From: Sphingomonadaceae bacterium
GTDB lineage: Bacteria > Pseudomonadota > Alphaproteobacteria > Sphingomonadales > Sphingomonadaceae
Reading direction: 5' to 3'
Assembly: GCA_030147805.1 (NCBI GenBank)
Contig: JASBUR010000058.1
Location: forward strand, 23,992 to 87,991
Length of the DNA: 64,000 nt
In this document: in pieces, positions 28,189-35,860 of the stretch
Numbering within the stretch: the stretch's first letter is position 1
Layout: each line of letters opens with the position of its first letter
The notes under the pieces: model-generated
Told to the model about the DNA's origin: nothing
The model's database searches: none
What the model saw: only the letters and a program-made list of their open reading frames with translations
Position numbers and translations under genes: made by a program

Positions 28189-29472
28189 TCATGCGGCGCG
28201 GCTCGGTTCGGCGGCGCCGCCATCGCGCGCGCGGAACCGGATCGGCATATGCTTGATGCCCCAGAACAGGTTCGAGCTCGACCATTCGACCGGTCCGGCG
28301 AGTTCGATGTCATCCATCCGGTCGAGCATCGCCTCGATCATGACCGCCATGTCGAGCCTGGCGAGGTGGGCGCCGAGGCAGAAATGCTTGCCCATGGCGA
28401 AACCGAGATGCGGGTTGGGATGGCGCCGGATGTCGAACCGTTCGGGGTCGTCGAATACCGCTTCGTCGCGATTGGCGGCGTGGAACCAGATCACCGCCCA
28501 GTCGCCGGCGCGCAGCGGCTTGCCGCCGACCTCGACATCCTCGGTCACCGTTCGCAGCGTGTGCGTCAGCGGCGAACTGTAGCGCACGAACTCGTCGGCG
28601 GCGGTGCGCAGCACTGCGGGATCGTGGCGATTGGCGCGCAGCCAGGCCAGCTGCGCCGGGTCCTTGAGCAGCTCGAGCAGTCCGACGCTCATCGACGAGC
28701 GCGTCGTCTCGTGGCCGGCCGCGAAGAACATCAGTCCGTTGAAGCCGATCTGCGTTTCGGTCAACGGCACACCGTCGATCTCGGCCTGGACCAGCGCGGT
28801 CAGCAGGTCGTCCTGCGGTGCCGCGCGCCGCGCTTCGGCGAGCTCGATGCAGGTGCGCATGATGTTCGAGACGCCGAAGGTGCTCGTCTCGATCGCGGTG
28901 CCGATCGCGAACTCGGGATCCTCCGGTCCGGCGAACATGTTGTTCCACCGGTAGAGATCGTCCCACAGCCCGCGCGGGATGCCGAGGATGGCGGCGATCA
29001 CCGCCGTCGGCAGGCGCCCGGCATATTCGGTGGTGAAGTCGCAGGTGCCGCGCGGCAGAATTTCGTCGAGCAATTCGTCGCTGATCCGGCGCACCAGAGC
29101 TTCGAGGCCGTTGACGCTCGTCGAGGTGAACGTCGTCGAGAAATAGCGCCGCAGCGCATTGTGCGGCTGGCCGTCCATCGTCGCGAGCTGCTGCGCGCTC
29201 TGCGCCAGCTGCGTGAACAGCGAGTCGTCGGGGTTCTCGAACTCGGGCCCCATCGGCAGGTTCGCTCCCGAACGCTGCACGCTGAAGATCCGGGTGTCGT
29301 TCATCAGCACGAATTTGGCGTCGGCATGCCGCGTGATCGACCAGAATTTCCGGCTCAGCCGCCCCTCGGTGAGATGCACCGGATCTTCGTGGCGCAGGCG
29401 CCGCCAGATCGCATGCGGATCGCCGTCGGCGAAGAACAGGGGATTGGTCAGGTCGATGCCGTCCTGGCTCAT
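28189..29472 (-). CDS. Cytochrome P450, 427 aa
   Basis: A complete soluble class I bacterial P450: I-helix oxygen-activation motif AAGHETTRSS (Gly253, Glu255, Thr256-Thr257), K-helix ExxR as Glu294-Arg297 (DEFVRY), and the heme loop LGFAMGKHFCLGAHLARLD with thiolate Cys365. A GAGG site precedes the ATG. It needs a ferredoxin and reductase, and none is encoded in the window. The style (DLTNPLFFADGDPHAIWRRLRHEDPVH) resembles P450s that hydroxylate terpenoid or steroid-type substrates, but the family number cannot be assigned. It is divergent from the peptide/prenyl-synthase cluster with a shared 427-base AT-rich gap, so it may be part of that pathway or belong with the receptor. Confidence 0.92.
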   Translation of the reverse strand: MSQDGIDLTNPLFFADGDPHAIWRRLRHEDPVHLTEGRLSRKFWSITRHADAKFVLMNDTRIFSVQRSGANLPMGPEFENPDDSLFTQLAQSAQQLATMDGQPHNALRRYFSTTFTSTSVNGLEALVRRISDELLDEILPRGTCDFTTEYAGRLPTAVIAAILGIPRGLWDDLYRWNNMFAGPEDPEFAIGTAIETSTFGVSNIMRTCIELAEARRAAPQDDLLTALVQAEIDGVPLTETQIGFNGLMFFAAGHETTRSSMSVGLLELLKDPAQLAWLRANRHDPAVLRTAADEFVRYSSPLTHTLRTVTEDVEVGGKPLRAGDWAVIWFHAANRDEAVFDDPERFDIRRHPNPHLGFAMGKHFCLGAHLARLDMAVMIEAMLDRMDDIELAGPVEWSSSNLFWGIKHMPIRFRARDGGAAEPSRAA

Positions 29473-29578
29473 GAGCTTACCTCGGCTGCCGCGTCGTTGC
29501 TCCGAAGCTATCGAACCCGCTTCACGGCGACCAACGGAGAAATCTCATCGCGTCATCAGGAAAGACGAGGGTGCAACG

Positions 29579-29665
29579 ATGATGATCAAAGCATGGCATA
29601 AAGATCATAAGCATAGTCTCATCAAAGCACTTGATGACTGGTTAGCTCGTCGAGATGAGATTTAA
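29579..29665 (+). CDS. Possible 28-residue peptide, Lys/His-rich amphipathic
   Basis: ATG at 29579 with GAGG at 29567-29570 (eight-base spacing). The product begins MMIKAWHKDHKHSLIKAL and ends DDWLARRDEI; it is basic and His-rich in the first half, acidic/basic in the second, with two Trp, and could form an amphipathic helix. It is too short for homology judgement and its codons are AT-rich unlike the neighbours. It could be a second peptide of the cluster, a leader peptide, or just an accidental frame inside a repeat region. Confidence 0.3.
   Translation: MMIKAWHKDHKHSLIKALDDWLARRDEI
29585..29629 (+). repeat. Three short direct repeats, ATCA(T)AAGCA
   Basis: ATCAAAGCA at 29585 and 29621, and ATCATAAGCA at 29604, are spaced 19 and 17 bases apart, close to two helical turns. 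They may be iterated regulator sites upstream of the peptide gene, or may reflect internal repetition of the small frame that covers them. Confidence 0.4.
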
Positions 29666-29899
29666 TCGAGAAGAGATCATTTATGTCGATGATAGATTAG
29701 AGATGTTGAACAGCAGTATATATTCATTCGTGGAGTTCAATTTCATTACATCCATAACATTTTGGATATGAATTCCGGGAAACGCGAATAGCGACTGTTG
29801 ATCGACCGAGGCAGGTTCTGGATCTCGGCAGGCCGGATGAGGGTTCGACTGAAACGAGGCATGGACTGCAGCGTGGCAATCCTTTCGATGGAGATCACA

Positions 29900-30049
29900 A
29901 TGCTCGATTCGATTTCAAACCGCTTCGACGCGCTCATGGCCGAGGCCGAGGCCGAGGCCGAAGCGCTGCTCGCATCCTATGGCAGCGACGAACTGCTCGA
30001 GCAGCGCATTTCGCGCGAGGGCGGAGGCCAGGGCGGCACCGCCTGCTGA
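29900..30049 (+). CDS. Candidate RiPP precursor peptide with C-terminal Cys, 49 aa
   Basis: The ATG at 29900 was chosen because TGGAG lies six bases upstream; in-frame ATGs at 29888 and 29861 have poorer sites. The product starts MLDSISNRFDALM, continues with the acidic helical repeat AEAEAEAEALLASYGSDELLEQRI, and ends SREGGGQGGTAC. A helical, acidic leader followed by a short Gly-rich tail with a single Cys as last residue is the layout of a leader/core precursor. It is followed by a prenyl synthase, a protease with a PqqD-like precursor-binding domain and a methyltransferase. I infer that the terminal Cys is the site of prenylation or other modification. No homologue is recognised by name. 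The alternative is a small regulatory protein. Confidence 0.7.
   Translation: MLDSISNRFDALMAEAEAEAEALLASYGSDELLEQRISREGGGQGGTAC
29939..29962 (+). repeat. GCCGAG hexanucleotide tandem repeat inside the peptide gene
   Basis: Four tandem copies of GCC GAG/A, three exact and the last ending GAA, encode the Ala-Glu run of the leader. Such repeats can change copy number by slippage in whole codons, which would alter leader length without a frameshift. Confidence 0.6.
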
Positions 30050-30053
30050 CCAA

Positions 30054-30106
30054 GGCCGGGTCTTTGGCCCGGTCCCGATTCCGGAGCGCGCCGGTGGCGC
30101 CTCCGG
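30054..30106 (+). promoter_or_regulatory. Two consecutive hairpins between precursor gene and biosynthetic genes
   Basis: The first: GGCCGGG / CCCGGTC with a seven-base loop (30054-30074). The second, stronger: CCGGAG-C-GCGCC, GGT loop, GGCGC-CTCCGG (30081-30106), an 11-pair stem with one bulged base. Neither is followed by a T-run, so they look like attenuating or mRNA-stabilising structures. Such elements behind a precursor gene commonly let it be expressed more than the enzymes downstream. Confidence 0.6.
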
Positions 30107-30129
30107 CATCGCGGCAAACGGAGGCGCCC

Positions 30130-31116
30130 ATGAGCGATCCAGCGGGAGAGATCTCCGCCGTGGCCGCGCTCGCGCTCGGCGTGATCGAGCGGGCAGCGGT
30201 AACCCCGGCCTACGGCCGGTTGCTGCGTGCCATTGCCGAAAGTCACATTGCGACAATCGCGGCTCGACCTGAGCGCCGCGGATTCGGCATCGAGCTGCCA
30301 CTGCTGGCGGCACGTGCCGTTGGGGGCGCGGAAGACCGGGCATTCATGCTCGCCGCCGCGATCCTGCTGCTCGAGGCGGGCATCTACGCGCTCGATCATC
30401 TGATGGACGACGAACTCGACGGCCCACTTGCCGAGCTGCCGCGCGCCGCTGTGCTCACCGGCGCCGTCAGTTTCATCAGCTTCCTTCCCCATCTGGCGAT
30501 CGGCGACCTGCCTGCGCCGCCGGCGTTGCGGGCTTACCTGGCCAAGACGCTCGCCGAGGGCATGGCCGCGATCGCGGCCGGTCAGGCCGGGGAAGCCGGC
30601 ACCTCGCTCGACAGCCCGCCGTCGCCAAGCGAAGTCGAGCGATCGATCGCCGGCAAGACCGGTGCACGTCGCGCCCTCTATGCGCGCCTCGGAGCCGCTG
30701 GCGCGGGGGCTGCGCCGGCGGCGATCGATGCACTGGCGGCCTATGGTCATGCGCTCGGCATGGCGCGCCAGATCGGATCGGACATCGACGATCTCTTCGG
30801 CGGCGACGATAGTCGCGATATCGCCGCCGGCGCCTGTACGCTTCCGCTCGCCTGCTTCTTCGCCACCGCGTCGCCGGACGAGGCCGAGGCGCTGCGCGCC
30901 GACGTCGCCGCCGCGCGGCGCGGCGAGCCGACGCTCGCGGCCGTTCGCCGCCGGCTGCGCGATGGCGGCGCTCTGCGCGCCGCTCTGCAGCGCCAGGAAG
31001 CATTCTGCGCGCTGGCCCGCCGGCATCTTCGCGACATCGACGCGCCGGTCGCGATCACCACGCGCCTCGAAGCGCATGTCGCCCAGATATCCTTGGGGGG
31101 CGCGTCGCATGGCTGA
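30130..31116 (+). CDS. ComQ-like trans-isoprenyl diphosphate synthase / peptide prenyltransferase, 328 aa
   Basis: The ATG at 30130 has GGAGG ahead. All-helical class I isoprenoid synthase with a degenerate first Asp-rich motif, ALDHLMDDELDG (Asp89, Asp93, Asp94), a conserved GKTGARRAL segment (Lys176-Thr177), and a second motif QIGSDIDDLFGGDDSRDIAAGACTLPL-type region (Asp218, 220, 221, 226, 227), with the downstream TLP as in ComQ and polyprenyl synthases. ComQ of Bacillus both makes and attaches a prenyl group to the ComX peptide. Here the first motif is looser than in housekeeping synthases, and a peptide gene lies upstream, so peptide prenylation is plausible; synthesis of a free prenyl diphosphate or terpene is the alternative. 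It overlaps the M50 gene by eight bases. Confidence 0.8.
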   Translation: MSDPAGEISAVAALALGVIERAAVTPAYGRLLRAIAESHIATIAARPERRGFGIELPLLAARAVGGAEDRAFMLAAAILLLEAGIYALDHLMDDELDGPLAELPRAAVLTGAVSFISFLPHLAIGDLPAPPALRAYLAKTLAEGMAAIAAGQAGEAGTSLDSPPSPSEVERSIAGKTGARRALYARLGAAGAGAAPAAIDALAAYGHALGMARQIGSDIDDLFGGDDSRDIAAGACTLPLACFFATASPDEAEALRADVAAARRGEPTLAAVRRRLRDGGALRAALQRQEAFCALARRHLRDIDAPVAITTRLEAHVAQISLGGASHG

Positions 31117-32329
31117 CGCGGGCGGCGAGATCGTGATGCTTGCAGCACCGGGTGTCGAACTGCATCGCCTCGCTGCACCGCTCGGTGATCGGCTGGCCGT
31201 CTTGAAGCATCGCGCGACGGGTCGCTATTTCGCACTCTCGCCGCTCGGCCTCGACATCTGGCAGCGGATCGCGTCCGGTGAGCCGCTGCCGGGACTGGTC
31301 GAAACGGTCACCGCGGGTCAGCCCGCCGCAGCGCGCGTGCGCGCGCTCCGCCTGTGTGCGCAGTTGCGCGCACAGGGCTTCGCCCGGCTGGCCGGCGAGG
31401 CACCGCCGGCCCCGTCGCCGCGCCTTCACCTCGATTTCCATCACCCGCTGCTGTGGGAGATTCGCGTGCGCGGCTGCGTCCCGCTGTTCCAGATCCTCTA
31501 TCTCTTGGGCGGCAAATGGCTGGTTTCGCCCATGGCGACAGGGCTGGCGGCCATCGTCGGCGTCGCCGGGATTTTGCTGCTTGCCGGTGCACCGGCGCTC
31601 GTGCCGCAGGATGTGCGCGTTCTGCCCTGGCTGTTCGCCGCCACCATCGCGGCGACCTTCGTCCACGAATGCCTGCATGGTCTGGCGGTGGTCCGCTTCG
31701 GTCGCGCGGTGGACGCGGTCGGGATCGGCTGGTTCTGGTTCGGACCGGCACCGTTCGTGGATACCTCCGACATGTGGCTGGGGACACGGGCGCAGCGCAT
31801 CTGGGTCAGCGCAGCGGGCCCCGCCGGCAACGTCGCCTTGGGCGGTGCAGCGGCGCTTCTGGCGAACATTCCTCCGGCAGGCAGTGTGCTCGCGCAGATG
31901 CTCTGGGCCTATTCGGCCGTCTGCTATTTCGTTGCTGCCTATAATCTATGCCCGCTCCTCGAATTCGACGGCTACTTCATTCTCACCGACGTGACCGGAG
32001 TCCCCAACCTGCGGCGCAAGGCCTATGCTTGGCTTGGCCGGCGGCTGCGCGGCGTGCCGGAGCCTGCGGCCCGGCCGCGGGAAGGAAGGCTCTTTCTTCC
32101 CTATTGCGTGGGGTCGCTCGCTTATGTGGCGGTGTTCGGCACGCTGACCGTCGAAGCCGTCGCCAGCTTCGCCGAAGCCCATGTGCGCTTCTGGCTGCCG
32201 GCCGCCGCGCCGGTGGTGGCGTCCGCAACGGCGCTCGGCTTCGCCGGCCTGCTGCTCTTCGGCACGCTCAAGGACGTGTTCGTCGACGTTCGGCGCGGCA
32301 TGTCTCTGTCGATCGCGAGCGCGCGCTGA
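31109..32329 (+). CDS. PqqD-like domain fused to M50-type membrane metalloprotease, 406 aa
   Basis: N-terminal residues about 10-95 resemble the PqqD/RRE precursor-recognition fold (LAVLKHRATGRYFALSPLG, then a helical LCAQLRAQGFARL). The rest is a site-2-protease-like membrane domain: HECLH (His186, Glu187, His190) and the third-ligand segment NLCPLLEFDGY (Asp287), set among four to six hydrophobic segments (about 140-162, 172-192, 232-253, 265-285 and near 340-400). Proteins of this architecture occur in RiPP clusters, where the PqqD-like part binds the leader and the M50 part cleaves or helps to export. It would act in the inner membrane on the modified 49-residue peptide. Confidence 0.85.
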   Translation: MADAGGEIVMLAAPGVELHRLAAPLGDRLAVLKHRATGRYFALSPLGLDIWQRIASGEPLPGLVETVTAGQPAAARVRALRLCAQLRAQGFARLAGEAPPAPSPRLHLDFHHPLLWEIRVRGCVPLFQILYLLGGKWLVSPMATGLAAIVGVAGILLLAGAPALVPQDVRVLPWLFAATIAATFVHECLHGLAVVRFGRAVDAVGIGWFWFGPAPFVDTSDMWLGTRAQRIWVSAAGPAGNVALGGAAALLANIPPAGSVLAQMLWAYSAVCYFVAAYNLCPLLEFDGYFILTDVTGVPNLRRKAYAWLGRRLRGVPEPAARPREGRLFLPYCVGSLAYVAVFGTLTVEAVASFAEAHVRFWLPAAAPVVASATALGFAGLLLFGTLKDVFVDVRRGMSLSIASAR

Positions 32330-33132
32330 TGGGTCGCCACCATTTCCACCCGGTCGATGAACGCTATACGCCCGAGGATATTGCCTATCTCGACCGGGCC
32401 GCGGCGCTCAAGGAGATTCGCGCCATCAAGTTGCGCAGCTACGCGGCGCTCGGCCCGCTCCGCGGTGTGCGACTGCTCGAGGTGGGATGTGGGACCGGCG
32501 ACGATGCCGCGCGGTTGGCCAGGGCGGTCGGCCCCGAGGGCAATGTTGTCGCGCTCGACAGCAACGCGGCGATGCTGGCGGAGGCGCGCGCCCGTTTCGG
32601 TCAGGTCGCAAACCTCCGGTTCGAGCTGGGCGCCGCCGCTGCGCTGCCCTTCACGGCGGGGGCGTTCGACGCCGTGCGTGCCGATCGGGTCGTGCATCTC
32701 GTCGCTGATCCCGGCGCCGCGCTGGCGGAAATGGCTCGGGTGCTCCGCCCCGGCGGACGTCTCGCGATCAGCGAGCCCGACTGGCGGAGCCTTGTCGTTG
32801 AGGGCGGCGACGCCGACACGACGCGCGCGATCCTCGACGGACTGGCGAGCGGCCCGCGTCCATCGACCGCCGATTTCGTCGCGCTCGTTCAAGCGGCGGG
32901 CCTGACCATCGATGCGGTGCTGCCCGACACGCTGGTGATCACCGACCTCGAGAGTGCCTACGAGCTCTTTCGGCTGGGCTATCTCGCGCTCGCGCAGGTG
33001 CAGCGGCTCGGCATCGACGCCGCGGCGGCGAAGCGCTGGCTCGCGTCGCTGGAGACGGCCGCTGCCGAGGGGCGGTTCCGCAGCGCGCTGACCGGCGTCA
33101 CCATATCAGCCACCCGCGACGGAGGCCGTTGA
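32329..33132 (+). CDS. Class I SAM-dependent methyltransferase, 267 aa
   Basis: A Rossmann-type methyltransferase: SAM motif I LLEVGCGTGDDAARLA (residues about 49-64), VVALDSNAAMLAEAR (motif II), VRADRVVHLVADPGAALAEMARVLRPGGRLAISEPDW (post I to III). It is soluble, not an Icmt-like membrane protein. Its ATG overlaps the M50 stop. In this cluster it could methylate the C-terminal carboxylate or thiol of the peptide, or the isoprenoid; UbiE/MenG-like quinone methylation is the alternative. The acceptor is not predictable. Confidence 0.88.
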   Translation: MGRHHFHPVDERYTPEDIAYLDRAAALKEIRAIKLRSYAALGPLRGVRLLEVGCGTGDDAARLARAVGPEGNVVALDSNAAMLAEARARFGQVANLRFELGAAAALPFTAGAFDAVRADRVVHLVADPGAALAEMARVLRPGGRLAISEPDWRSLVVEGGDADTTRAILDGLASGPRPSTADFVALVQAAGLTIDAVLPDTLVITDLESAYELFRLGYLALAQVQRLGIDAAAAKRWLASLETAAAEGRFRSALTGVTISATRDGGR

Positions 33133-33680
33133 TGTCGCTCGCGGATTCGGCCGAAACCGTCATCCTGGTCGACGATGACGACAATCCGCTCGGCGTCGCC
33201 GGGAAGCTCGACGCGCATCGTCGCGGGCTACGGCATCGCGCCTTTTCGATCATCGCGGTCAACGCGGTCGGCGACCTGCTCCTGCAGCGCCGGGCCGCCG
33301 GGAAGTATCACTCCGCCGGCTTGTGGACCAACGCCTGCTGCGGACATCCCCGCCCCCGCGAGACCACGGCGGCTGCGGCCCGACGGCGGATCGGCGAGGA
33401 ACTCGGCGTGGTGGCTGAGCTGCAGCCGATCGGCCGCATCGCCTATCATGCCGACCTCGCCGGCGGGATGGTCGAGAATGAGGTGGCGCATCTCTTTGCC
33501 TGTCGGCTCGGCGGACGGCTCGATCCGGACCCGGCCGAGGTCTCCGACTGGCGCTGGATCAGTCCGATCGAGCTGACGATCGAATTGGCTCGTACGCCGG
33601 GCAGCTTCACCGCCTGGTTCCGGCACTATCTGCAGGTCGCCCGCCCGCTGATGCTCGACCCGTTACGCGCGGTAGCGTGA
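33132..33680 (+). CDS. idi: Isopentenyl-diphosphate delta-isomerase, type I, 182 aa
   Basis: The ATG at 33132 has GGAGG six bases upstream and overlaps the methyltransferase stop. Type I (Nudix) IPP isomerase: HRAFSIIAVNAVGDLLLQRRA, the catalytic Cys in LWTNACCGHPRP (Cys70), the Nudix-like RRRIGEELGV, and the acid in GMVENEVAHLF (Glu117). It converts IPP to DMAPP, the starter unit for prenylation. The housekeeping DXP pathway already makes both, so a dedicated idi indicates high local DMAPP demand. In sphingomonads idi is normally found with carotenoid genes, and none is present here. Confidence 0.93.
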   Translation: MSLADSAETVILVDDDDNPLGVAGKLDAHRRGLRHRAFSIIAVNAVGDLLLQRRAAGKYHSAGLWTNACCGHPRPRETTAAAARRRIGEELGVVAELQPIGRIAYHADLAGGMVENEVAHLFACRLGGRLDPDPAEVSDWRWISPIELTIELARTPGSFTAWFRHYLQVARPLMLDPLRAVA

Positions 33681-34885
33681 CCGCCGTGCGCCACTTCACG
33701 ATCGTCGGCGGGGGCCAGGCAGGGCTGTTGCTGGCGATCGGCCTAAGGCTCGGCGGGCATCAGGTACGGCTAGTCCAGGATCGTGGGGCCGAGGAGACGG
33801 CGCGCGGCCGTTTGCCGTCGCCGCAATGCCTCTTCCACGGTGCCGTCGCCTACGAGCGCTCGCTCGGACTCGACCTGTGGAGCGAGGCGGCGCCGGCGAT
33901 CGAGCTGTGTGAGATCGCCGAACTGGCAAGGCCGGGGGCAGCGACGCCACAGCTATCCTTCGGCGGGAGCTTTCGCTCACCGGGACAGGCGATCGATCCG
34001 CGCCTCAAATTCTCCGCATGGCTGGAGCGGCTCGTCGAACTCGGCGGCGAACTCGAAATTGCGACGGCAACGACGGCCGACATCGAGCGATACGCGCGCG
34101 AAAGCGATCTTGTCGTCATTGCCGCCGGCAGGGGCGGTTTCGATGGGCTCTTCCCGCGCGACGACCGCAACTCGCCGTTCGCAACGCCGCAGCGGGCGCT
34201 GTCGCTCATCTATCTCAAGGGCGCGGTCGGCGATGCGCGTCGTCCGGGAATCCGGTCGACCGGAATTGCCGGACAGGGCACTGTGATCGACATCCCTGTC
34301 CTCACGGCGCATGGAGCCGCGGATAGTCTCACGTTCGAGGCTTTTTCGGGAAGTGCGCTTGATGTGGGCAGCGGACGCCTCGACGCCGCGGCGCTCGCTG
34401 AGCGGATGCTGACCGCGCTCCGCGAGATGCTCCCGGACCGATGGGAGCGCTTTCGCGATGCGCAGCCGGTCGATGACGGGGCGTACCTCAGCGGTGCGGT
34501 GGTGCCGACGGTGCGCAATGCCGTCGGCGTGCTGCCTTCGGGCCGCGCGGTGCTCGGTATCGGCGATACCGTCGTCACCAACGATCCGATCACCGCACAA
34601 GGTGCCAACAATGCGACGCGGCTCGCGGCGCTGTATGTGTCCGCGATCGACCGCCGCGGTGATGGCGCGTTCGATGGCGAGTGGATGGCTAACCTCGCGG
34701 CGGCGGCGTGGGCGCGCATACGTGCCGCCACCTATTTCACGAACCTGACGCTCCTGGGGGCACCGACGTTGGTGGCGGCGTTGCACCGCGCCAGCGAAAG
34801 TCAGGCGATCGCGGATCGTTTCGTAGAAGGCTTCAACGAGCCGGGGACAATTCTCCCGTTTCTGATGGCAGCATCACCGCGTTGA
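33677..34885 (+). CDS. StyA-like FAD-dependent monooxygenase (styrene/indole epoxidase family), 402 aa
   Basis: Starts at GTG overlapping the idi stop. Rossmann FAD motif HFTIVGGGQAGLLLAIGL (Gly11-Gly16), then the substrate-domain sequence typical of styrene monooxygenase StyA (LPSPQCLFHGAVAYERSLGLDLW, LSLIYLKGAV, TAQGANNATRLAALY). StyA-type enzymes use reduced FAD from a partner reductase to epoxidise an alkene. No StyB-like reductase is seen in the window. In this operon its natural target would be the double bond of a prenyl group, an inference from position. Last gene of the cluster. Confidence 0.88.
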   Translation: MTAVRHFTIVGGGQAGLLLAIGLRLGGHQVRLVQDRGAEETARGRLPSPQCLFHGAVAYERSLGLDLWSEAAPAIELCEIAELARPGAATPQLSFGGSFRSPGQAIDPRLKFSAWLERLVELGGELEIATATTADIERYARESDLVVIAAGRGGFDGLFPRDDRNSPFATPQRALSLIYLKGAVGDARRPGIRSTGIAGQGTVIDIPVLTAHGAADSLTFEAFSGSALDVGSGRLDAAALAERMLTALREMLPDRWERFRDAQPVDDGAYLSGAVVPTVRNAVGVLPSGRAVLGIGDTVVTNDPITAQGANNATRLAALYVSAIDRRGDGAFDGEWMANLAAAAWARIRAATYFTNLTLLGAPTLVAALHRASESQAIADRFVEGFNEPGTILPFLMAASPR

Positions 34886-35121: not shown

Positions 35122-35808
35122 TCAGGCGACCCTGCGTAACTCGCCGAGGTTGCGGATGACCCACACGCCATTGCGCTTGTCGATAAGACCTGCAGATCTG
35201 AGCGAAGTGATTTCACGATGCACGCTCTGCCGGGTGACGTCGAACAGGTCGGCTATGTCGGACTGCGTCAGTGGAAAGGCGAGCGAGAGTTCCCCGCGGA
35301 CGTCCGGTTCGCCACATTCGGTGGCCAGATTCTCGAACATCGAGGCGATACGTTTGCCGAGGCGCTGCGTTGCGCGCATCTCGCGGCTGGCGATCTGGCG
35401 GGTGATGGCGGCTGCGAACTTGCGGCACAGCGCGTCGGGGATTTCGGGGATGCGGCTGTAGAGATCCCAGAAGTCGGCTTCGCCGAGACAGCGGATGCGC
35501 GCAGGCGTGAGCGCGGTCGAGGTATGGTGATAGGCGCGGCGTGCGACCATCGCCGTCTCGGCATAGCAGTTGCCGGGAAGGTAGATCGTGATCAACGCCT
35601 GTCGGCCGTCCTCGCGCAACCCGTCGAGACGGACATAGCCTTCGACGACCTGGAAGACCCGCGACGCCGGATCGCCCGCGCGGGCGATGATGCCGCCGGC
35701 GGGAACGTCCAGCACGGTCATGCGCCCGAGAATGGCCTCGCGTGCCGGGCCCGGAAGCTCCGCCACCCAGTTCTCGCGCGTCACGACCCGGTGCGATCCG
35801 CCCTTCAT
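35122..35808 (-). CDS. Crp/Fnr-family transcriptional regulator, 228 aa
   Basis: The ATG at 35808 is preferred; a TTG 36 bases upstream is also in frame. Cyclic-nucleotide-binding-like beta-roll (VFQVVEGYVRLDGLREDGRQALITIYLPGNCYAETAMV), dimerisation helix, and a C-terminal winged helix TQSDIADLFDVTRQSVHREITSLRSAGLI. No N-terminal Cys cluster, so it is not an Fe-S oxygen sensor like Fnr; the effector is unknown. It is divergent from a TonB receptor with a palindrome TGTCACATAGGCGACA between, which fits autoregulation and receptor control. Confidence 0.9.
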   Translation of the reverse strand: MKGGSHRVVTRENWVAELPGPAREAILGRMTVLDVPAGGIIARAGDPASRVFQVVEGYVRLDGLREDGRQALITIYLPGNCYAETAMVARRAYHHTSTALTPARIRCLGEADFWDLYSRIPEIPDALCRKFAAAITRQIASREMRATQRLGKRIASMFENLATECGEPDVRGELSLAFPLTQSDIADLFDVTRQSVHREITSLRSAGLIDKRNGVWVIRNLGELRRVA

Positions 35809-35860
35809 CGGTGCCCACTCTGCCTGCCGCTCACGCGGCCGCAAAGTTTTTTCTAAAGAA

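Follow-up and report, generated by a model that had tools for sequence, protein, structure and literature searches.

A candidate operon for S-prenylation of an encoded C-terminal cysteine in a Sphingomonadaceae bacterium

A 64,000-nt stretch of DNA from a Sphingomonadaceae bacterium (GenBank assembly GCA_030147805.1, contig JASBUR010000058.1, positions 23,992-87,991; G+C 69%), hereafter called the window, carries a 49-codon gene with an operon of five overlapping genes on its 3' side. The locus is almost certainly a biosynthetic operon for a ribosomally synthesized and post-translationally modified peptide (RiPP). We propose, with a probability of roughly 0.6, that the C-terminal Cys of the encoded peptide is S-prenylated, carboxyl-methylated and oxidized, and that a short lipopeptide is released by a membrane protease. 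S-prenylation of the Cys is inferred; the Cys is favored as acceptor because it is conserved, because the active-site motif of the associated enzyme is altered, and because PalQ sets a precedent for prenylation of C-terminal residues.

The features of the locus, with the evidence for each, are as follows.

28189..29472, minus strand: divergent cytochrome P450 gene, a possible but unproven cluster member (lies between the operon and a TonB receptor gene)
29900..30049, plus strand: precursor peptide gene, MLDSISNRFDALMAEAEAEAEALLASYGSDELLEQRISREGGGQGGTAC (ribosome-binding site, coding score, profile of relatives, conserved motif, terminal Cys)
30052..30116, plus strand: two G+C-rich hairpins in the gap between precursor and enzyme genes (RNA fold -50.6 kcal/mol, z -2.05)
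30130..31116, plus strand: isoprenoid-synthase-fold enzyme, proposed peptide Cys prenyltransferase (PF00348, alignment, AlphaFold2 model, tree)
31109..32329, plus strand: RiPP recognition element (RRE) fused to an M50 intramembrane (site-2) protease (NCBIfam daptide_HExxH, invariant residues, AlphaFold2 model)
32329..33132, plus strand: class I S-adenosylmethionine-dependent methyltransferase, proposed C-terminal carboxyl methyltransferase (Methyltransf_31/11; relatives confined to Cys-type loci)
33132..33680, plus strand: isopentenyl-diphosphate isomerase, type I, Nudix (NCBIfam PRK03759, TIGR02150)
33677..34885, plus strand: StyA/indole-monooxygenase-type flavoprotein, proposed epoxidase or S-oxidase of the prenyl thioether (PF17885)

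Successive genes of the operon overlap by 8, 1, 1 and 4 bases. A first-pass annotation of this DNA had described the layout, strand and gene order, the 49-codon gene with its ribosome-binding site and sole terminal Cys, the two hairpins, and five genes overlapping by 1-8 bases, all of which were confirmed on the sequence. Its family calls held as well, the matches being to PF00348, PqqD-like plus M50, Methyltransf_11/31, isopentenyl-diphosphate isomerase, and the StyA domain PF17885, and its view of the locus as a RiPP-type operon gained support from conserved precursors, a leader motif and a predicted RRE fold.

Results

Precursor peptides ending in a single Cys

The window precursor starts with ATG, 6 nt downstream of a GGAG ribosome site, and the only Cys among its 49 residues is the last. 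An acidic leader with the motif SDELLEQRIS precedes a core of about REGGGQGGTAC; the peptide has neither Trp nor His, and its single Tyr sits in the leader. The coding score was +23.7 bits in frame and -22.8 and -11.8 in the other two frames. When the window's open reading frames (ORFs) were ranked with profiles made from relatives only, the window peptide being left out, the precursor came first of 1112, with E-values of 0.002-0.007 when the Azotobacter peptides were in the profile and 1.1, still in first place, without them. A spurious small gene, in front of an operon that would be an ordinary cluster for terpenoid tailoring, is highly improbable: small ORFs in G+C-rich DNA invite this explanation, as do the weak E-values of the window peptide (0.002-1.1), but the in-frame coding score, the ribosome site, the first rank under these profiles, and peptides of like position and motif in three further lineages all speak for a real gene.

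Cys-type precursors numbered five across four loci and lineages: the window, Azotobacter vinelandii CA (two, MDANKYENSIEQFEVELDTEEIRWEDIADEDLEARISKDQASSAGYYC and MDASKHENSIEQFEVELDVEEIRWEDISDEELESRISKETGGSAGGSQC), a Myxococcota metagenome-assembled genome (MAG; tail ...SDMELSQRINPLGKNC) and the cyanobacterium Rhizonema sp. PD37 (tail ...NDTELQARLNMDHGNNPTWGC). Each of the five follows a ribosome site, contains the motif [SAN]D.[ED]L..R[IL], and has exactly one Cys, at the C-terminus, which is the sole core residue shared among them. The two Azotobacter cores are dissimilar (KDQASSAGYYC and KETGGSAGGSQC), yet both are Cys-terminated. Among 40-90-residue ORFs of the same DNA, by comparison, 1.5-3% have a C-terminal Cys and fewer than 1% have a sole, C-terminal one. 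A further Cys-ended Rhizonema ORF (2115-2222), which has no leader motif and resembles part of an inserted repeat, was left uncounted. The Os1348 nitrile hydratase-like leader peptide (NHLP) clan model (NCBIfam NF038399) was matched by the Myxococcota and Rhizonema peptides and by those of the sister loci described below.

A synthase-like enzyme with altered Asp motifs

The enzyme encoded directly after the precursor matched PF00348 (42 bits). Its first Asp motif is LDHLMD (D89-H90-x-x-D93), a correction of the earlier assignment to DDELD, which overlaps the end of LDHLMD; the second is QIGSDIDD (Q214-x-x-S217-D218-x-x-D221). The housekeeping hallmark, DDxxD in both motifs, is therefore absent, the window enzyme having DHLMD and QIGSDIDD. 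In the alignment, every synthase from a Cys-type locus has D[HN]xxD (LDHLMD, LDHIMD, LDHIAD, LDNLAD) and every one from a non-Cys locus has DDxxD; the first Asp of the second motif is lost in all members of the clade, replaced by Ser, Thr or Gly. A tree of 46 proteins split this clade from 32 housekeeping synthases at 100/100, so a housekeeping origin of the window enzyme, which the first-pass annotation had named as grounds for refutation, was rejected. Within the clade, the five Cys-type synthases grouped together (86/95) and the window enzyme paired with that of Azotobacter (95/99); inner details of the tree are tentative because several branches are long. A clade profile gave clade synthases 144-517 bits and housekeeping ones at most 61, with the qualification that it was built partly from scored members (those of L122, L150, L165 and L169 were not among them; L numbers denote loci).

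The AlphaFold2 model (predicted local distance difference test score, pLDDT, 93.4) was nearest to ordinary trans-prenyl synthases (Z 33) and also matched the Trp prenyltransferase Ord1 (9v4h; Z 30.8, 293 aligned residues, rmsd 2.9). Known Trp-specific enzymes recognize the indole through a network made up of a Gln and the second motif's first Asp (PMC13290415). The window enzyme retains the Gln (Gln214) and has Ser217 in place of the Asp; since this recognition Asp is gone and the precursor has no Trp, we do not class it as a Trp prenyltransferase.

The fold and the PF00348 match would also suit an enzyme whose product is a free terpenoid or prenyl diphosphate, the peptide being modified in some other way and its Cys serving disulfide, metal or other thiol chemistry. 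The isomerase and the StyA-like protein suit terpenoid chemistry, a P450 gene is adjacent, and the genome (91% complete) has only one other PF00348 gene, a strong match at G000:C38. We nevertheless consider this unlikely because the clade stands apart from housekeeping synthases and its genes lie beside small RiPP-like precursors and RRE-site-2 proteases. The Asp motifs point the same way: none of the members keeps the first Asp of the second motif, and changes to the first motif coincide exactly with the Cys-type subclade.

With separate synthases for short and long chains, more PF00348 genes would be expected than the two seen in this 91%-complete assembly. The NCBIfam model nearest to the window synthase describes the polyprenyl-transferase cargo of family 2 encapsulins. 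Family 2 encapsulins pair cyclic-nucleotide-binding domains with polyprenyl-transferase cargo.

Sister loci without the terminal Cys

The terminal Cys is a trait of one synthase subclade, not of the whole clade. Precursors elsewhere in the clade end in ...SNFFS (a Myxococcota MAG, L126), ...SKFFS, ...SKM or ...SKIP (Elusimicrobia, L131), ...SKLP (L143), ...SLT or ...SHAA (Rhodoferax, L128), or ...SDPIGTPWD and similar (Tistlia, Thalassobaculum, L169). The initial expectation of a small Cys-terminal peptide beside the cluster thus held for five precursors of four lineages, in which the Cys is kept, and failed for these sister loci.

In L131 (5004-5650), L128 (6389-7189) and L126 (5917-6141), the synthase-associated precursors occur in up to three consecutive copies and stop one to four residues past the leader motif (FFS, KM, KIP, SLT, HAA). 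Tistlia, Thalassobaculum and a related MAG (L150, L165, L169) each have one or two clade synthases, with precursors ending in WSDPIGTPWD or similar (L150 6631-6924 and 10634-10918, L165 6755-7084, L169 6166-7015); these peptides are possible Trp substrates.

Sister precursors with almost no residues past the leader motif (..RISKFFS, ..RISKLP) would fit a small product, and hence a pearlin-like scaffold in which the encoded C-terminal Cys is modified and released as a small molecule, such as an S-prenylcysteine ester, with the peptide as carrier. 3-Thiaglutamate biosynthesis modifies and cuts off a C-terminal Cys on a 50-residue scaffold (PMC9016710). Against this, a carrier whose Cys comes from its own gene could not be recharged; the Cys is preceded by variable cores several residues long; and inspection of genes around Cys-type loci turned up no peptide aminoacyl-tRNA ligase, although no search was aimed at one. 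We judge a pearlin-like scaffold rather unlikely.

The RRE-site-2 protease

From sequence and prediction, the protease comprises an RRE (residues 12-96) and an M50 domain whose catalytic residues would be HECLH (186-190) and D287. It scored 131 bits with NCBIfam daptide_HExxH (NF041824), under the cut-off of 300, and 19.8 bits with Pfam PqqD, also below cut-off; its relatives in L120 and L131 were above the PqqD cut-off. The HExxH motif and the third-ligand Asp are invariant across 16 relatives. In the AlphaFold2 model (pLDDT 86.7), the RRE part matched the leader-bound RRE of TbiB1 (5v1v; Z 8.5, 80 of 88 residues, rmsd 3.0), and residues 167-297 matched RseP, SpoIVFB and the Methanocaldococcus jannaschii site-2 protease (Z about 10).

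Among eight proteases of relatives that were examined, seven have detectable N-terminal cyclic-nucleotide-binding domains, whereas the window protease has none. Loci L120, L122, L124, L126, L128, L131 and L150 encode fusions of one or two such domains with an RRE and an M50 domain, beside peptides of the NHLP (Os1348) clan. It would be unusual for cyclic nucleotides to control the cleavage of a RiPP leader.

Methyltransferase, isomerase and monooxygenase

The methyltransferase matched Methyltransf_11/31. Relatives 34-39% identical to it occur in all Cys-type loci, including one in a second Rhizonema strain whose contig ends before the precursor position is reached; seven non-Cys loci gave nothing beyond a trace match. 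As the Cys-type loci form one clade, this counts as one co-inherited trait and not as independent gains. Its relatives in the Protein Data Bank include, among many others, the RiPP C-terminal methyltransferase LahSB (6uak, 80 bits), and class I enzymes are known to methylate C-terminal carboxyls in RiPPs (PMC11285071). On sequence grounds, a C-terminal carboxyl methyltransferase is proposed.

The isomerase exceeded the cut-offs of PRK03759 (167.5 bits; cut-off 127) and TIGR02150 (114; cut-off 105.8). The StyA-like protein has the FAD motif GGGQAG and matched the Smoa substrate-binding domain (PF17885, 82 bits); with the full-length model NF045732 it scored 193 bits, below the cut-off of 550. 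It is 48% identical to the copy in the Azotobacter cluster and at most 41% identical to other StyA-like proteins found, and its closest solved structure is 7z97. The window genome encodes a single PF01613 flavin reductase elsewhere, which could serve it.

StyA-type enzymes also oxidize thioethers. This activity would suit a pathway in which the peptide is prenylated elsewhere than on Cys and in which the methyltransferase and the StyA-like protein likewise act elsewhere, for instance by S-methylation or sulfoxidation. RiPPs are indeed prenylated at N-termini and on a number of side chains (PMC13290415). Such a pathway seems quite improbable given that Cys is the only core residue common to the five precursors, that Trp and His are absent from the window precursor, whose one Tyr belongs to the leader, and that PalQ provides a precedent at a C-terminal residue.

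Distribution of related loci

A scan of 85,000 genomes with an alignment of three proteins (the window protease, the Actinomyces oris daptide protease and another PqqD-M50 protein) returned 80 loci. When these were searched with the proteins of the cluster and a profile of the synthase, 12 synthases of the window type came to light beside the protease, in 11 loci; synthase, protease and methyltransferase accompany small precursors in A. vinelandii, Rhizonema and the Myxococcota MAG. A contig scan with the window protease alone gave no match. About 1200 sampled genomes of the window's order (n=398, protease query), class (n=385, protease query) and phylum (n=398, synthase query) had no orthologue, nor did 99 relatives searched with the synthase; Azotobacter's family (n=248) and Rhizonema's order (n=268) had none beyond those known. 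Two borderline synthase matches in Pseudomonadaceae were rejected as housekeeping-like.

Plasmid searches returned only PqqD-M50-HlyD fusions, daptide proteases, StyA genes resembling those of indole pathways, and one distant synthase from Priestia megaterium plasmid pFDU301A; viral contigs gave no match. The Priestia synthase (L200 4842-5849) scored 169 bits with the clade profile and has the motifs DDIAD and QLINDFQD; no recognizable NHLP-type precursor was found close by.

Flanking DNA

The hairpin pair after the precursor gene gives a modest signal, in that 7 of 200 shuffled sequences had an equally good minimum free energy. No terminator-like T-run accompanies it, and no Rfam family, promoter or terminator match was found across 29400-30200. 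The pair may be an attenuator that fixes the ratio of precursor to enzymes.

Between the P450 and precursor genes lies an A+T-rich stretch (29580-29780; 36% G+C against 69% for the window), perhaps promoter DNA or an acquired fragment, with two mini-ORFs of 28 residues (MMIKAWHKDHKHSLIKALDDWLARRDEI, with a possible ribosome site) and 38 residues. A P450 gene also lies 3' of the methyltransferase gene in Rhizonema; at 24% identity the two P450s were ruled out as specific relatives. The first-pass annotation had suggested the TonB receptor as a possible importer of a siderophore-like product. This idea was dropped for want of conservation, the genes annotated around Cys-type relatives showing no such receptor. 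Nor is the receptor gene adjacent to the operon, since the P450 gene intervenes. At the other end, a Crp/Fnr-type regulator gene (35122-35844) faces the end of the operon; it is relatives' proteases, not the window's, that carry cyclic-nucleotide-binding domains.

Discussion

Proposed pathway

In the proposed pathway, the precursor would be bound by the RRE of the protease, and perhaps also by the prenyltransferase. Its C-terminal Cys would enter the active site of the synthase-like enzyme, which would no longer make prenyl diphosphates but would move a prenyl group (C5-C15) to the thiol; the isomerase would provide dimethylallyl diphosphate. The methyltransferase would then esterify the C-terminal carboxylate, and the StyA-like enzyme, with the flavin reductase encoded elsewhere, would oxidize the prenyl double bond or the thioether. 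Removal of the leader by the site-2 protease, probably near ...QRIS|REGGGQGGTAC, would free a short, lipophilic product at the membrane, a prenyl-peptide methyl ester that most likely serves as a signal or acts on membranes.

Several points weigh against this pathway. Sister precursors of the same synthase clade lack the Cys, so the family need not modify Cys; and because the Cys-type loci form one clade, their common traits amount to one origin kept over long divergence. According to a 2026 review, every characterized bacterial peptide prenyltransferase resembling trans-isoprenyl diphosphate synthases acts on Trp (PMC13290415). NF038399 (threshold 40 bits) does not pick up the peptides of the window and Azotobacter, which have diverged too far. 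The isomerase gene is inside the operon only in the window (that of A. vinelandii is encoded away from its cluster), a StyA gene belongs to the cluster only in the window and Azotobacter, and the operon contains neither a StyB-type partner flavin reductase nor an exporter. Finally, what was observed here are genes, motifs, conservation and predicted folds, from which we deduce each chemical step, the order of steps and the biological role.

It is perhaps an even bet that these loci constitute a bacterial counterpart of isoprenylcysteine methyl-ester pheromones, in which a D[HN]xxD enzyme would prenylate an encoded Cys, with methylation, oxidation and RRE-guided release, in an alphaproteobacterium, Azotobacter, Myxococcota and Cyanobacteria. 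If so, the same chemistry of Cys prenylation and carboxyl methylation evolved independently in bacteria, on peptides that are released or membrane-bound; peptide lipidation would gain a useful tool, a Cys prenyltransferase encoded by one gene and specific for the C-terminus; and A. vinelandii, a harmless and classic laboratory species, would offer a testable case. Orphan precursors of the Os1348/NHLP clan and cyclic-nucleotide-binding proteases would also be tied to prenyl chemistry.

Comparison with known systems

The earlier remark that no described system has such a gene set holds as far as the open-access literature shows: no description of such a cluster was found there, subscription journals being mostly outside the search. 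ComQ/ComX had been offered as the precedent; as precedents, PalQ/PalX and daptide MpaP proved closer than ComQ/ComX alone; PalQ, ChrPC and ComQ were likened to the window synthase by description, not by sequence. A Cys acceptor would extend a known kind of system, a trans-prenyl-synthase-derived peptide prenyltransferase with a leader-type precursor.

ComQ/ComX of Bacillus shares with the window a small precursor and a relative of trans-prenyl synthases with a degenerate second motif, which prenylates the peptide as is proposed for the window enzyme; unlike the proposed enzyme, ComQ modifies an internal Trp. The partners of ComQ/ComX are ComP/ComA, with no RRE-site-2 protease or methyltransferase. 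PalQ of Paenibacillus alvei prenylates the C-terminal residue, a Trp, of the NHLP-type precursor PalX (PMC10853753). Here too an isoprenoid-synthase-fold enzyme lies beside a small leader-type precursor and acts on the last residue, as is proposed for the window; both enzymes have first-motif Asp residues at positions 1 and 5 (D89 and D93 in each), and the window precursor has NHLP-clan relatives, PalX itself being of NHLP type. The acceptor differs (Trp against the proposed Cys), and the three-gene Pal cluster lacks methyltransferase, RRE-protease, isomerase and oxygenase, all four of which the window has.

In the daptide pathway, the RRE-fused site-2 protease MpaP removes the leader (PMC10036551). 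Its likeness to the window extends to the domain order (RRE, then site-2 protease), a methyltransferase in the cluster, and, as proposed for the window, a C-terminally modified peptide; the window operon, however, has no MpaB, MpaC or MpaD, its genes are all of other families, and its precursor ends in Cys, not Thr. We do not count the locus among the daptides. Os1348-family NHLP-clan loci (L122, L124, L126, L131, L150) combine a cyclic-nucleotide-binding RRE-M50 protease with a prenyl-synthase-like enzyme; compared with these, the window peptide is shorter and unmatched by the clan model, and its protease lacks cyclic-nucleotide-binding domains.

Eukaryotes are known to prenylate Cys and then methylate the carboxyl group. 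The CaaX proteins and yeast a-factor offer an analogy in C-terminal Cys prenylation, carboxyl methylation and membrane proteolysis, although the enzymes are unrelated and the window Cys is already the last residue, so that no -aaX trimming would be needed. The aeruginosamide prenyltransferase is of the cyanobactin type. Aeruginosamides, which are linear cyanobactins, combine a prenyl group and a C-terminal methyl ester on a RiPP (PMC7551963, PMC11285071), as the window product would, with the difference that their prenyl group is at the N-terminus.

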